From Acidobacteriota bacterium (GTDB taxonomy: Bacteria > Acidobacteriota > Terriglobia > Bryobacterales > Bryobacteraceae), in assembly GCA_025354885.1 (NCBI GenBank), contig JANXLY010000375.1, forward strand, positions 1 to 64,000: DNA of 64,000 nucleotides, in the 5' to 3' direction. The translations under genes were made by a program, and so were the position numbers. Of this stretch, positions 54,921-59,957 are shown in pieces (position 1 is the stretch's first letter; every line of letters starts with the position of its first letter). Under the pieces are notes generated by a model, which saw only the letters and a program-made list of their open reading frames with translations, did not search any database and was not told where the DNA came from.

Positions 54921-56522
54921 CTATTCTATCAGGGCGGGTATTTTGGGGGCTGCCTGTACTTTGTCCCAAGGCTCGGCCCCGACGCGAGTGGCCCACTTCG
55001 CGTATTTTGCTTCGAGGTTGGCGGCGAGTTTCGGATTGGCGTTGCTGAGGTCTTTGCTCTCGGTACGGTCCGCAGCCAAGTCGTAAAGTTCCCAGTTGCC
55101 GGGATACCTGGAGACCAGTTTGTGTTGACCTTGGCGGATGGCGCGGTTGCCTTCGTGCTCCCAGTAGAGAGTGCGCTTTGAGAGGATGTCTTTGCCCTGG
55201 AGTGCTGGCAGCAGGCTCATGCCTTCCGAGGGCGTGGAGTTGGTGTGGCTGGCATCGAGAAAGGTCGCCATGGCGTCGACAATATGACCTGGCTGGCTTG
55301 TAATGCTGCCGGGGGCTTTAACCTGACCTGGGAAGTGAGCGATGAAAGGCGTTGCGATGCCGCCTTCGTGGACCCAGTGTTTGTAGAGACGGAAAGGAGT
55401 ATTCGAAGCATTGGCCCAGCCGAGGCCATAGCTTTGGTAGGTGTTCTCCGGGCCTGGCATGCGCGAGGGATCGTTACCTGGGAACACCGTTTCACCAGCG
55501 CGGGTCTGCAGCGGTACATGGCGGGCCTTGATCTGGAGGGCGAGTTCTTCGGCGCAACCGCCGTTATCGGACAGGAAGCAGATGAGGGTGTTGTTGAGCG
55601 AATTGGTTTCCTTGAGGGCAGCTATGATGCGGCCGACGCCCTGATCCATGCGCTCGACCATGGCGGCATAGGCGGCCATGCGTTCGATCTGCCAGTCCTT
55701 GTTTGGCTCGTCGGCCCAGGCGGGGATCTTTTCGCCGCGAGGGGAGAGGGGCCATTTGCGGTCAACGATGCCGAGGTCGAATTGGCGCTGGTGGCGATCG
55801 AGGCGCAACTGATCCCAGCCCTTGCTGTAGGTCTTGCGATGGCGGGCGATGTCATCGGCGAACGCATGCATCGGCCAATGAGGGGCAGTGAAGGCGTTGT
55901 ACAGGAAGAAAGGTTCTTTCCGGGCGGTGCATTCGCGGATGTACTCAACGCTCTTGTCGGCAATAGCGTCGGTGTAGAAGAAGTCTTTTGACGGCGTGAC
56001 CGGCGCGTTGTCTTCGCTTAGGGTCGTGGGAGCATAATAGCTGCCTGCCCCGTGGATGGTGCCGAAGAACTTTTCAAAGCCTCGCTGGTTGGGCCAGTTT
56101 TGTTTGGAGTTGTTGACGGGAGTGACGTGCCACTTGCCGCTCATGCGGGTCTGGTAGCCACCGCGCTTGAGTGCCTCGGCTATGGTGACGGACTTAGGGT
56201 TGAGGTCGCCGAGGTATGCGGGGAGTTTGCGACCCGTATCAACCATGTGACCCATGGAAGCCTGATGCGGGTAAAGTCCAGTGAGGAGCGACGCGCGAGT
56301 GGGGCAGCAGCGGGCACCGTTATAGAAGTGTGTAAAGCGCAGACCGCCTTTTGCGAGTGAGTCGAGATTTGGCGTCGGGATCTCGCTGCCATAACATCCG
56401 ATGTCAGAGAAGCCCAAGTCGTCGGCGAGGATTAGAATGACGTTTGGCTTTTGGGACTTGGCGATCAAAGGTGCTGCAAGTGAAGGAAGGAAGTGGCGAC
56501 GGAGCATTGGGCTGTATTCCAT
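54921..56522 (-). CDS. type I sulfatase (arylsulfatase family)
   Basis: NVILILADDLGFSDIGCYGSEIPTPNLDSLA; CCPTRASLLTG (CxPxR formylglycine motif). Start at 56522 or 56507. Confidence 0.9.
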   Translation of the reverse strand: MEYSPMLRRHFLPSLAAPLIAKSQKPNVILILADDLGFSDIGCYGSEIPTPNLDSLAKGGLRFTHFYNGARCCPTRASLLTGLYPHQASMGHMVDTGRKLPAYLGDLNPKSVTIAEALKRGGYQTRMSGKWHVTPVNNSKQNWPNQRGFEKFFGTIHGAGSYYAPTTLSEDNAPVTPSKDFFYTDAIADKSVEYIRECTARKEPFFLYNAFTAPHWPMHAFADDIARHRKTYSKGWDQLRLDRHQRQFDLGIVDRKWPLSPRGEKIPAWADEPNKDWQIERMAAYAAMVERMDQGVGRIIAALKETNSLNNTLICFLSDNGGCAEELALQIKARHVPLQTRAGETVFPGNDPSRMPGPENTYQSYGLGWANASNTPFRLYKHWVHEGGIATPFIAHFPGQVKAPGSITSQPGHIVDAMATFLDASHTNSTPSEGMSLLPALQGKDILSKRTLYWEHEGNRAIRQGQHKLVSRYPGNWELYDLAADRTESKDLSNANPKLAANLEAKYAKWATRVGAEPWDKVQAAPKIPALIE

Positions 56523-56523
56523 G

Positions 56524-58566
56524 TCAGGAAGCATCAGATTTCGGCTCTGTGAATTGGATGAGTTTTTCGACAAGCTTGAACATGATCAGCGGTTTGCTCA
56601 GATAGCCATCCATGCCAGCAGCAATGCATGCGGCTTCGGCATCGCTGAACACGTTGGCAGTGAGCGCTATGATCGGGATCGGCTTTCGCCCATTTGCTTT
56701 TTCCCAAGCTCGGATGGCGCGGGTGGCGGCGTAGCCATCGAGTTCGGGCATCTGGCAATCCATGAGTATCGCATCGAAGTCCTGGTTCCGAACGGCATGG
56801 AACGCTTCGTTGCCATTATCGGCGATGTAGACAACAGCACCTTGCCGCTCCAGCATGAGCCGTGCCACTTTCTGATTGACGGCATTGTCCTCGGCGAGCA
56901 AAACACGAAGCCCGGGCCGAAGGCGGATTTCGGATGGAATTCCGGTGGGACTTTCGGATTGTTCCGAAGAGAAAACGCGAAATACAGCGTCGCGGAGCGC
57001 ATCTCGGTGAACGGGTTTGGCAAGCGTTATGCGAATCCGTAGCTCCGAAAGTGTAGTGAGATCGACAAGGTGGGAAGAAGAACTAAGCAAGAGCACTTGC
57101 AGTTGTTGCGTTGAAGGCAACGCTCGGATGGCACGCGTGAGCATAATGCCGTCCATCACGGGCATTTCGACATCGATAATAGCGAGATCGAAAGGGTTGC
57201 CGGATTGCTGCGCTTCGAGCAGTGCCACCAGGGCATGGGCACCGGAGCTTGCTTCAACAACGGCAGTGGTGAATGGTTCGAGATGGTTGCGGACGATCTG
57301 CAGATTGACTTTGTTATCGTCTACGATTAGCACTCGTTTGCCACTCAAGGGATTGATTGGAGCGTAGGTTGGGAGCGGTAGTGGGAAGACAGGGAATTCA
57401 AGCTCAACCCAGAAGGTCGAGCCAGTGCCGACGGCACTGTTGAGCCCGATCCGGCCACCCATGAGTTCAGTCAGGCTTTTCGATATTGCCAGACCAAGGC
57501 CTGTGCCACCGAATTTTCTGGTGGTTGAAGAATCGGCTTGGGTAAAAGAGCGAAAGAGATTTGCCTGTGCCGCCTCGGAAATTCCGATACCGGTATCGAC
57601 GATTTCAAATCGGAGGGAGGCGGTCTCCGAATCCAAGTTGAGGATTTTCACATTGCAATCCACCTGACCGCTGGGAGTGAACTTAATGGCATTGGAAACA
57701 AGGTTGAGCAGGATCTGACGCAGCCGAGCTGGATCGCCAATCAGACCTTCCGGAAGATTTGAGGGGAGGATGGTGTGAACTTCGAGATTCTTGCGCGCGG
57801 CGATCGGAGCATTAAGTTCCATAGCCTCTTCGACCGTCTGGCGCGGAGAAAAAGGAATAGCTTCTAAAGTGACTTTGTTCGCCTCGATTTTGGAGAAGTC
57901 GAGGACGTCGTTGATGATGGAAAGCAAGGCGTCGCTCGAAAGACGGACAGTATCGAAAAGGTCGCGATGCACTGGAGCGAGGGCATTGGGTGTGAGCAAA
58001 CTCAATGTGCCAATAATGCCGTTGAGTGGGGTGCGGATCTCATGGCTCATGGTTGCAAGAAAGTTGGACTTTGCAAGATTGGCGGAAACAGCTTCATCGC
58101 GGGCCCGAGACAGTTCCAAGGTGCGTTCGGCTACTTTCTTCTCGAGCTCCAGATTGACGCTGGCCAGCTTGGCGTTGGCCTCTTCAAGGTCGGACGGAGA
58201 GGGGTAGGCGAGAGCTTGGGGAATGATGCGGTAGAGAGTGATGGCGGTTGCGCAGGAGACAAGCCCAGTAACAAATTTCACCAGGACTTCGAGGCGGTAT
58301 ATGGGGTGCCAGAGAACGACGACGCCGAGGGCATGAGTGAGCCCACAGAAAATAATGAAGGCACCGAACATGTAAAAGATTGCGTTGAAACTGAGGTCGC
58401 GGCGACGGCGGACGAAGTAAATCAGCGATAAGGGGATGGAAATGTAAGATAGCGTGATCAAAGTATCTGAAAGTACCGACAGCCAGAGTATCTCGGGGCG
58501 CCAGGCAAAGCAATAACCATGCGGCATGAAATCCGGGCGGAGTAGATGGCGGAAAAATTCAATCAT
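56524..58566 (-). CDS. hybrid sensor histidine kinase with N-terminal ethylene-receptor-like membrane domain, HisKA-HATPase and two REC domains
   Basis: N-terminus SDTLITLSYISIPLSLIYFVRRRR...FGAFIIFCGLTHALGVVVLW...KFVTGLVSCATAITLYRIIPQAL; FLATMSHEIRTPLNGIIG; GGTGLGLAISKSLTELMGG; REC LIVDDNKVN and LLAEDNAVN. Confidence 0.92.
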   Translation of the reverse strand: MIEFFRHLLRPDFMPHGYCFAWRPEILWLSVLSDTLITLSYISIPLSLIYFVRRRRDLSFNAIFYMFGAFIIFCGLTHALGVVVLWHPIYRLEVLVKFVTGLVSCATAITLYRIIPQALAYPSPSDLEEANAKLASVNLELEKKVAERTLELSRARDEAVSANLAKSNFLATMSHEIRTPLNGIIGTLSLLTPNALAPVHRDLFDTVRLSSDALLSIINDVLDFSKIEANKVTLEAIPFSPRQTVEEAMELNAPIAARKNLEVHTILPSNLPEGLIGDPARLRQILLNLVSNAIKFTPSGQVDCNVKILNLDSETASLRFEIVDTGIGISEAAQANLFRSFTQADSSTTRKFGGTGLGLAISKSLTELMGGRIGLNSAVGTGSTFWVELEFPVFPLPLPTYAPINPLSGKRVLIVDDNKVNLQIVRNHLEPFTTAVVEASSGAHALVALLEAQQSGNPFDLAIIDVEMPVMDGIMLTRAIRALPSTQQLQVLLLSSSSHLVDLTTLSELRIRITLAKPVHRDALRDAVFRVFSSEQSESPTGIPSEIRLRPGLRVLLAEDNAVNQKVARLMLERQGAVVYIADNGNEAFHAVRNQDFDAILMDCQMPELDGYAATRAIRAWEKANGRKPIPIIALTANVFSDAEAACIAAGMDGYLSKPLIMFKLVEKLIQFTEPKSDAS

Positions 58567-58575
58567 TTGAGTGGC

Positions 58576-59331
58576 TCACAACAATGCTACAGGACGGACA
58601 GGAGAGCCTGTGGCGCCATTGAGTTTTAGGGGGAGGCAGACAAAGAGGCATTCCTTGAGGCCGGTGGAGGCGAGTTCATCGAGTTTCAGATTCTCGATGA
58701 TGTAGATGCCTTTCTGAGGGAGCAAGTAGAAGTGAGCGAAGAGCGTGACGCCGGTTTCGGGGTCGACAATGCCGGGGACATCCCAGGCCATGTTGTCGGC
58801 GCCCACAGCAATGACCTTGTGGTCGGCAGCCCAAATCGTTGCGGATTTATGGGCACCTGCTGCTTTGAGGTAAGCTGCTTCGTCATTCCAGATGCGATCA
58901 AAACCAGTGCGTACGAGAAGGACGTCGCCCGGGTTGGGGCGAGTGTCGCCGAGGGCATTTTCGAGGTCGTCGGCAGTGAATTCGTATTCGGGTTCGAGGG
59001 GAGCGAGATTGGCGAAGACGGCGCGACACATGATCGGAGGAATGGTCTCGACTCCGTGTTGCGAAAAGCCAGTGGGGGATTCAACGCCCGACGTTGGAAT
59101 GTTGCCATGGAGGCAGCCGTGGGCAGCCTGATGGGAAAGGGCATCGATGTGTGTGCCGGTGTGTTCCATCATGGTCAACACGCCGCTGGCACTGGTGCGC
59201 GGCGTACCTGTCGGATCACTATGGCGACGATGGAGTGCGTAGAAGTAGCCTGGCTTGTGAGCAGGATGGATGGGCATGCCGACAAAGCGAGGCTGTTCGA
59301 GATCAATGATGCGTGAGAAGGATGGAGTCAT
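58576..59331 (-). CDS. cyclase/kynurenine formamidase-like family protein
   Basis: MMEHTGTHIDALSHQAAHG (HxGTHxDxxxH). Confidence 0.85.
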   Translation of the reverse strand: MTPSFSRIIDLEQPRFVGMPIHPAHKPGYFYALHRRHSDPTGTPRTSASGVLTMMEHTGTHIDALSHQAAHGCLHGNIPTSGVESPTGFSQHGVETIPPIMCRAVFANLAPLEPEYEFTADDLENALGDTRPNPGDVLLVRTGFDRIWNDEAAYLKAAGAHKSATIWAADHKVIAVGADNMAWDVPGIVDPETGVTLFAHFYLLPQKGIYIIENLKLDELASTGLKECLFVCLPLKLNGATGSPVRPVALL

Positions 59332-59957
59332 TTGGGGTCGTTTCTGAGAATGCTTTGTCCGCCCAGGGAGAGCCAGAAGGCAGCGGCGGTGAATGTGGTA
59401 AGAACGAGACCCAGGGAATAGATGTCACTGAAATGAGTGGCTTCAGTGCCTTTGAGTTGTTCGGAAGCCATGTAAGCAGGAGTGCCCTGGCGGATCTCGG
59501 AGGCGTTGAGTTCACTTGCTACGGCGGCGAGGCCGGCGCAGACTTTGCGGGAGATCTCGATGGCCTTGTCGGAAGGCAAGCGACCGATGCGACGGAGCAA
59601 GCTGGAGAGGTTTTCACCGATGTCGTAGACACGGCAAACGTTGGGGTGGGAGACCTGGCGGGCGATGCGGACTTCGGAGTGGAAGCGTTTGAGCCAGCGA
59701 GGGTCTGAAGTGGCGAGTTGCGGGAGGAATTTGAGGGCGACGGATTGTCCGAGAGTAAGATCAGCGGCTCGATAGACTTCTCCCATGCCGCCTTTACCGA
59801 GAAGCGCGATGATGCGGTAGCGGCCATTGAGCAGAGTGCCCGGAAGGAAGCGGCCTTCTAGCGATTCGAATTTGGAGGGATGGGAGCTGCTGGTTGAGAC
59901 GGGAGTTGTGTCGCCAATCACAGTTTGGGTGAAATCGCCTGTTGATTGGTCTGGCAT
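59328..59957 (-). pseudogene. remnant Ser/Thr protein kinase lacking the catalytic loop and DFG motif
   Basis: YRIIALLGKGGMGEVYRAADLTLGQSVALKFLP and GTPAYMASEQLKG, SDIYSLGLVL are present; HRDLKPxN and DFG are absent between CAGLAA and VASELN. Confidence 0.8.

Follow-up and report, generated by a model that had tools for sequence, protein, structure and literature searches.

An ETR1-type hybrid histidine kinase of Acidobacteriota is a candidate ethylene receptor encoded at a presence/absence site

In a 64,000-nucleotide stretch of acidobacterial DNA (the window), we found that a single intact open reading frame on the minus strand, with an ATG start and no internal stops, encodes a hybrid histidine kinase of 680 residues (Table 1). 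Residues 26–120 matched the Pfam family ETR1_N (PF25487) with an E value of 1.5e-36 and 125 bits against a cut-off of 27, far above chance, and are followed by HisKA (165–229), HATPase_c (277–391) and two Response_reg domains. The kinase output is intact, with the HisKA histidine H175, the HATPase_c motifs and the receiver aspartates Asp465 and Asp603 all in place, and a genome-wide profile search detected no other ETR1_N gene in this genome. A Pfam scan of the whole protein recognised no GAF or PAS domain, which sets it apart from the plant ETR1/ERS1 type, defined by a GAF domain between sensor and kinase. These results bear out an earlier note on the same DNA, which had placed an ETR1-type sensor on a hybrid histidine kinase at exactly these coordinates and had described its direct fusion to HisKA-HATPase-REC-REC without a GAF domain. 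The missing GAF domain is nevertheless ordinary, because GAF was recognised in only one of the 62 bacterial ETR1_N proteins that we scanned (HATPase_c in 57, a receiver in 14); for the same reason, a sensor joined directly to the kinase is common.

Table 1. Coordinates and basis of the features at the receptor locus
Feature	Position in window	Strand	Basis
ETR1_N-HisKA-HATPase_c-REC-REC hybrid histidine kinase, 680 aa	56524..58566	-	ORF and Pfam
ETR1_N sensor domain, three transmembrane helices	58207..58491	-	Pfam, genome search, AlphaFold model, residues
Cys19 of the PHGxC motif, right before helix 1	58510..58512	-	Alignment of 62 bacterial sensor domains
Signalling helix, residues 124-159, connecting the sensor straight to the kinase	58090..58197	-	AlphaFold model
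His175, predicted autophosphorylation site in the HEIRTP H-box	58042..58044	-	Sequence motif
HATPase_c, residues 277-391	57394..57738	-	Pfam
Asp465, predicted acceptor in the first receiver (IIDVEMP)	57172..57174	-	Sequence motif
Asp603, predicted acceptor in the second receiver (LMDCQMP)	56758..56760	-	Sequence motif
Cyclase-family gene (PF04199), 9 bp upstream of the receptor gene	58576..59331	-	ORF, Pfam; neighbour also in G006
Ser/Thr kinase remnant, 209 aa, overlapping the cyclase start by 4 bp	59328..59957	-	Comparison with G006
Sulfatase, first possible ATG 1 bp past the receptor stop; G003 has it but lacks the receptor	54921..56522	-	Pfam, spacing, G003 locus

The ethylene-binding residues of ETR1 are all represented in the sensor domain. 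Residues D34, Y41, I44, P45, I71, C74 and H78 correspond to ETR1 D25, Y32, I35, P36, I62, C65 and H69 at a constant offset of 9, and K97 and S104 correspond to K91 and S98 at an offset of 6; the offsets were measured against an Arabidopsis ETR1 sequence, of which the Pfam match is independent. We take these seven ETR1 residues to be the complete list, in agreement with the earlier note, whose claim that all seven are kept at ETR1 spacing is correct. Across 62 aligned homologues, there is no variation at D34, Y41, I71, C74 or H78 and very little at I44 or K97. The ETR1 residues needed for ethylene binding have been described (PMC6586836, PMC11819568), and two bacterial receptors that carry the seven, AzoEtr1 and SynEtr1, bind ethylene (PMC11819568). 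An AlphaFold model of residues 1–160, built from 55 homologues (mean pLDDT 93.5, pTM 0.76), predicts helices at 24–54, 61–86, 90–120 and 124–159, that is, a three-helix bundle leading into a signalling helix that heads toward the dimerisation domain. In this model D34, Y41, I44 and P45 lie on helix 1, I71 on helix 2 and K97 on helix 3; C74 and H78, whose placement the earlier note had proposed to check in this way, both fall on helix 2 of the bundle. The monomer model agrees with the published model of ETR1, which puts C65 and H69 at the dimer interface (PMC6586836). Neither a sequence search nor a fold search found a solved structure related to the sensor domain, and this short bacterial domain with its confidently modelled fold could thus be a target for a first experimentally solved structure.

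Immediately N-terminal of helix 1, Cys19 of a PHGxC motif is invariant in the 62 aligned bacterial sensor domains. Many of these sequences were collected with the pattern FMPHG[HY], so the conservation of PHG was partly selected for, but that of Cys19 was not. The motif is not known to occur in plant ETR1. In ETR1, Cys4 and Cys6 make inter-chain disulfides (PMC6586836); by analogy, we would guess that Cys19 plays a similar part.

An orthologue in a second genome of the genus (G006) retains every site and is 60% identical to the window protein overall and 65% identical over the sensor domain. By sequence comparison of this pair, the sensor domain is under constraint roughly equal to that of the ATPase domain (dN 0.30, with dS saturated, and 0.28, respectively), and conservation is slightly lower in the two receivers (55% and 61% identity). 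Two proteins of the same genus, L107 and L108, share the order of sensor, kinase and two receivers with the window protein; they are 60% and 49% identical to it over the whole protein, and L108 lies at a different locus. All three retain the seven residues and K97 despite 35–45% divergence of the domain. Their sensor domains form one clade in the sensor-domain tree (support 100/94), so the two-receiver architecture seems to mark a lineage at the level of the genus. Arabidopsis ETR1, on a long branch in a tree built from few alignment columns, falls outside this clade and joins a cyanobacterial sequence, from Acaryochloris, with modest support (89/80). Over the sensor domain, the window protein and the Azospirillum plasmid copies share about 50% identity. 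The phylum also holds divergent ETR1_N kinases in which several of the copper/ethylene residues are gone (L047, L049, L053 and L057).

The cyclase gene and the receptor gene are probably co-transcribed: the spacing is tight, both between these two genes and between the receptor stop and the sulfatase ATG, which suggests a single transcript. The cyclase gene and aroC-def-fmt-argJ are common to five congeners (G006, the window's genome, G003, G001 and G004). The order is Ser/Thr kinase, cyclase, receptor, aroC in G006; kinase remnant, cyclase, receptor, sulfatase, aroC in the window; kinase, cyclase, sulfatase, aroC in G003; kinase, cyclase, aroC in G001; and cyclase, aroC in G004. Genome searches and locus comparison found the receptor gene to be absent altogether from the close relatives G003, G001 and G004, so it is dispensable in the genus. 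Within the window's genus, the receptor gene is a presence/absence cassette whose site, between the cyclase gene and aroC, is fixed. In an unrooted FastTree tree of five shared proteins, the window's genome pairs with G003 (0.986), apart from G006, and the pattern therefore needs either more than one loss or more than one arrival at a single site; under either history, the receptor is an accessory gene. Its presence or absence among congeners at a conserved locus provides a matched comparison for receptor function.

The Ser/Thr kinase upstream of the cyclase gene has 870 residues in G006 versus 209 in the window, where deletions removed the catalytic loop together with most of the C-terminal region. 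The remaining frame is still open and the overlap with the cyclase start is retained. We considered a functional link between this kinase and the receptor by analogy with ETR1 and CTR1, and rejected it because the window kinase is a remnant without the catalytic loop.

Beyond this genus, ETR1_N was present in 12 of 61 genomes in a set comprising the window's genome and its relatives, in 23 of 396 genomes across the phylum Acidobacteriota, and in none of 14 control genomes. The family is patchy within the phylum. A GTDB scan also found it in Bacteroidota, Bdellovibrionota, Myxococcota, Pseudomonadota, Nitrospinota, Elusimicrobiota and Verrucomicrobiota, in a search built on a three-sequence alignment that favours FMPHG[HY] sequences, leaves out cyanobacteria and makes PHG look more conserved than it is. 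Judged by residue conservation, Acidobacteriota now join the groups in which ethylene perception is predicted from a fully conserved binding site.

Ethylene receptors are known to function in Synechocystis (PMC6682694) and Azospirillum (PMC11819568), and putative ones have been reported from further bacterial phyla (PMC11819568). Similar to the window protein, AzoEtr1 of Azospirillum brasilense, which binds ethylene and affects biofilm formation and root colonisation (PMC11819568), is a bacterial protein with an ETR1_N domain carrying the seven residues, followed by a histidine kinase. By contrast, AzoEtr1 contains a PAS domain and lacks fused receivers, with a separate response-regulator gene just downstream, whereas the window protein has no PAS domain and two fused receivers. 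Of the bacterial receptors, the earlier note named SynEtr1 but not AzoEtr1, which already takes demonstrated ethylene binding beyond the cyanobacteria. SynEtr1 (slr1212) of Synechocystis, which we compared by description only, is likewise a bacterial receptor kinase of the same sensor family, but it is also a photoreceptor with PAS/GAF-type domains (PMC6682694) that the window protein lacks. Arabidopsis ETR1 shares the three-helix copper/ethylene domain, the seven residues, the lysine equivalent to K97 and a kinase and receiver after the sensor; it differs in its GAF domain and in having just one receiver, an atypical one. Because functional bacterial receptors are known and most bacterial members have no GAF domain, the window receptor is well supported as a further example of a known bacterial type, not a new kind of system. 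What is new here is the patchiness within the phylum, the presence/absence cassette at a fixed site and the genus-level clade with two receivers. A survey of non-plant ethylene receptors reportedly appeared in 2020. Our search of mainly openly accessible literature found no paper joining Acidobacteria and ethylene receptors.

Taken together, the PF25487 match, the kept ligand residues, the helical-bundle model and the G006 orthologue with every site favour, as a prediction, the bacterial ethylene receptor that the earlier note had proposed. The curated PF25487 profile places the gene product, a hybrid sensor kinase bound to the membrane, in the bacterial ethylene-receptor family. We consider it likely that it works as a Cu(I)-dependent ethylene sensor, with ethylene binding and any role in soil both inferred. 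In the mechanism that we propose, the three N-terminal helices would form a dimer holding Cu(I) through C74 and H78 of helix 2, with D34 of helix 1 and K97 of helix 3 contributing a polar network, and ethylene would bind the copper within the membrane. The altered helix packing could then pass along the continuous helix 124–159 to the dimerisation domain and change autophosphorylation of H175, from which phosphate may move to D465, D603 or both, then to a separate HPt protein and on to a response regulator. The genome encodes HPt open reading frames of stand-alone size (130 and 109 residues) and Cu-type P-ATPases.

The same Cu(I)-dependent membrane sensor could instead have another alkene, CO or copper as its natural ligand, with ethylene binding incidental. 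The copper site is kept across many phyla and habitats, some with no obvious plant link, and recurs in kinase-free phage proteins; we also found no ACC deaminase in the window's genome, which leaves this genome without an independent tie to plant ethylene. However, the equivalents of Y32, I35, P36 and I62, which affect ethylene binding itself in ETR1, are kept as well, and published tests of bacterial receptors show responses to ethylene (PMC11819568, PMC6682694), which makes a different natural ligand quite unlikely. A wider version of this idea would make ETR1_N a membrane module for copper and small ligands in general, with plant-hormone sensing not its main task; kinases in many bacterial phyla would bear it as a dispensable cassette, and phages would have it kinase-free, in some cases next to endolysin or packaging genes. 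We regard this wider version as unlikely; if it were true, plant ethylene would not have to be what the acidobacterial receptor reports. It is highly improbable that the sensor domain is ligand-free and merely anchors and dimerises the kinase: binding-site loss does occur in the family, as the degraded sites of L047, L049, L053 and L057 show, but the window protein, L107 and L108 have kept all eight residues through their divergence. An assembly or contamination artefact that made the gene foreign to this genome can be dismissed almost entirely, because, although the assembly has 431 contigs and 5.4% estimated contamination, the orthologue in the 4-contig G006 assembly of the same genus is syntenic, with the same cyclase gene on one side and aroC-def-fmt-argJ on the other.

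ETR1_N proteins without a kinase are encoded on phage-derived contigs and by the cultured Maribacter phage Molly_1. The Molly_1 protein, Molly1_65 (MT732451.1; L120, 3932–4801), has 289 residues, matches ETR1_N with an E value of 1.5e-16 and is annotated as hypothetical; at its copper site the Cys and His are retained and the D is replaced by N. Phage Colly_1 also encodes a kinase-free ETR1_N protein. A 128-residue protein consisting of ETR1_N alone (L018, 4998–5384; E = 5e-21) is a phage gene product, because its gene is flanked by those for a terminase large subunit and a fusion of portal protein with an Acb1-like domain. Another, of 139 residues (L014, 4971–5390), has all eight conserved residues and adjoins 20 tRNA genes on a 349,660-bp IMG/VR contig that is probably a jumbo phage. 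Two more viral contigs carry kinase-free ETR1_N proteins (L021, 4992–5411; L022, 4911–5423), and the proteins of L018, L021 and L022 all retain the Cys and His. The ETR1_N proteins of L014, L018, L020, L021 and Molly_1 had no match among the PHROG families, single-protein scans for additional phage copies returned only those already known, and our search of mainly openly accessible literature found no publication describing phage ETR1_N proteins. A viral structure library gave one significant match, a 289-residue protein (E = 8e-4, probability 1.00, TM 0.60), equal in length to Molly1_65. The Molly1_65 gene stops 3 bp ahead of an amidase endolysin gene, with a terminase gene nearby, and endolysin-like genes (lysozyme-like or GH108) lie about 0.2 kb and 1.1 kb downstream in L021 and L022, the lysozyme frame of L021 being broken by TAG. 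From these positions, we would guess that the phage ETR1_N proteins play a holin-like role.
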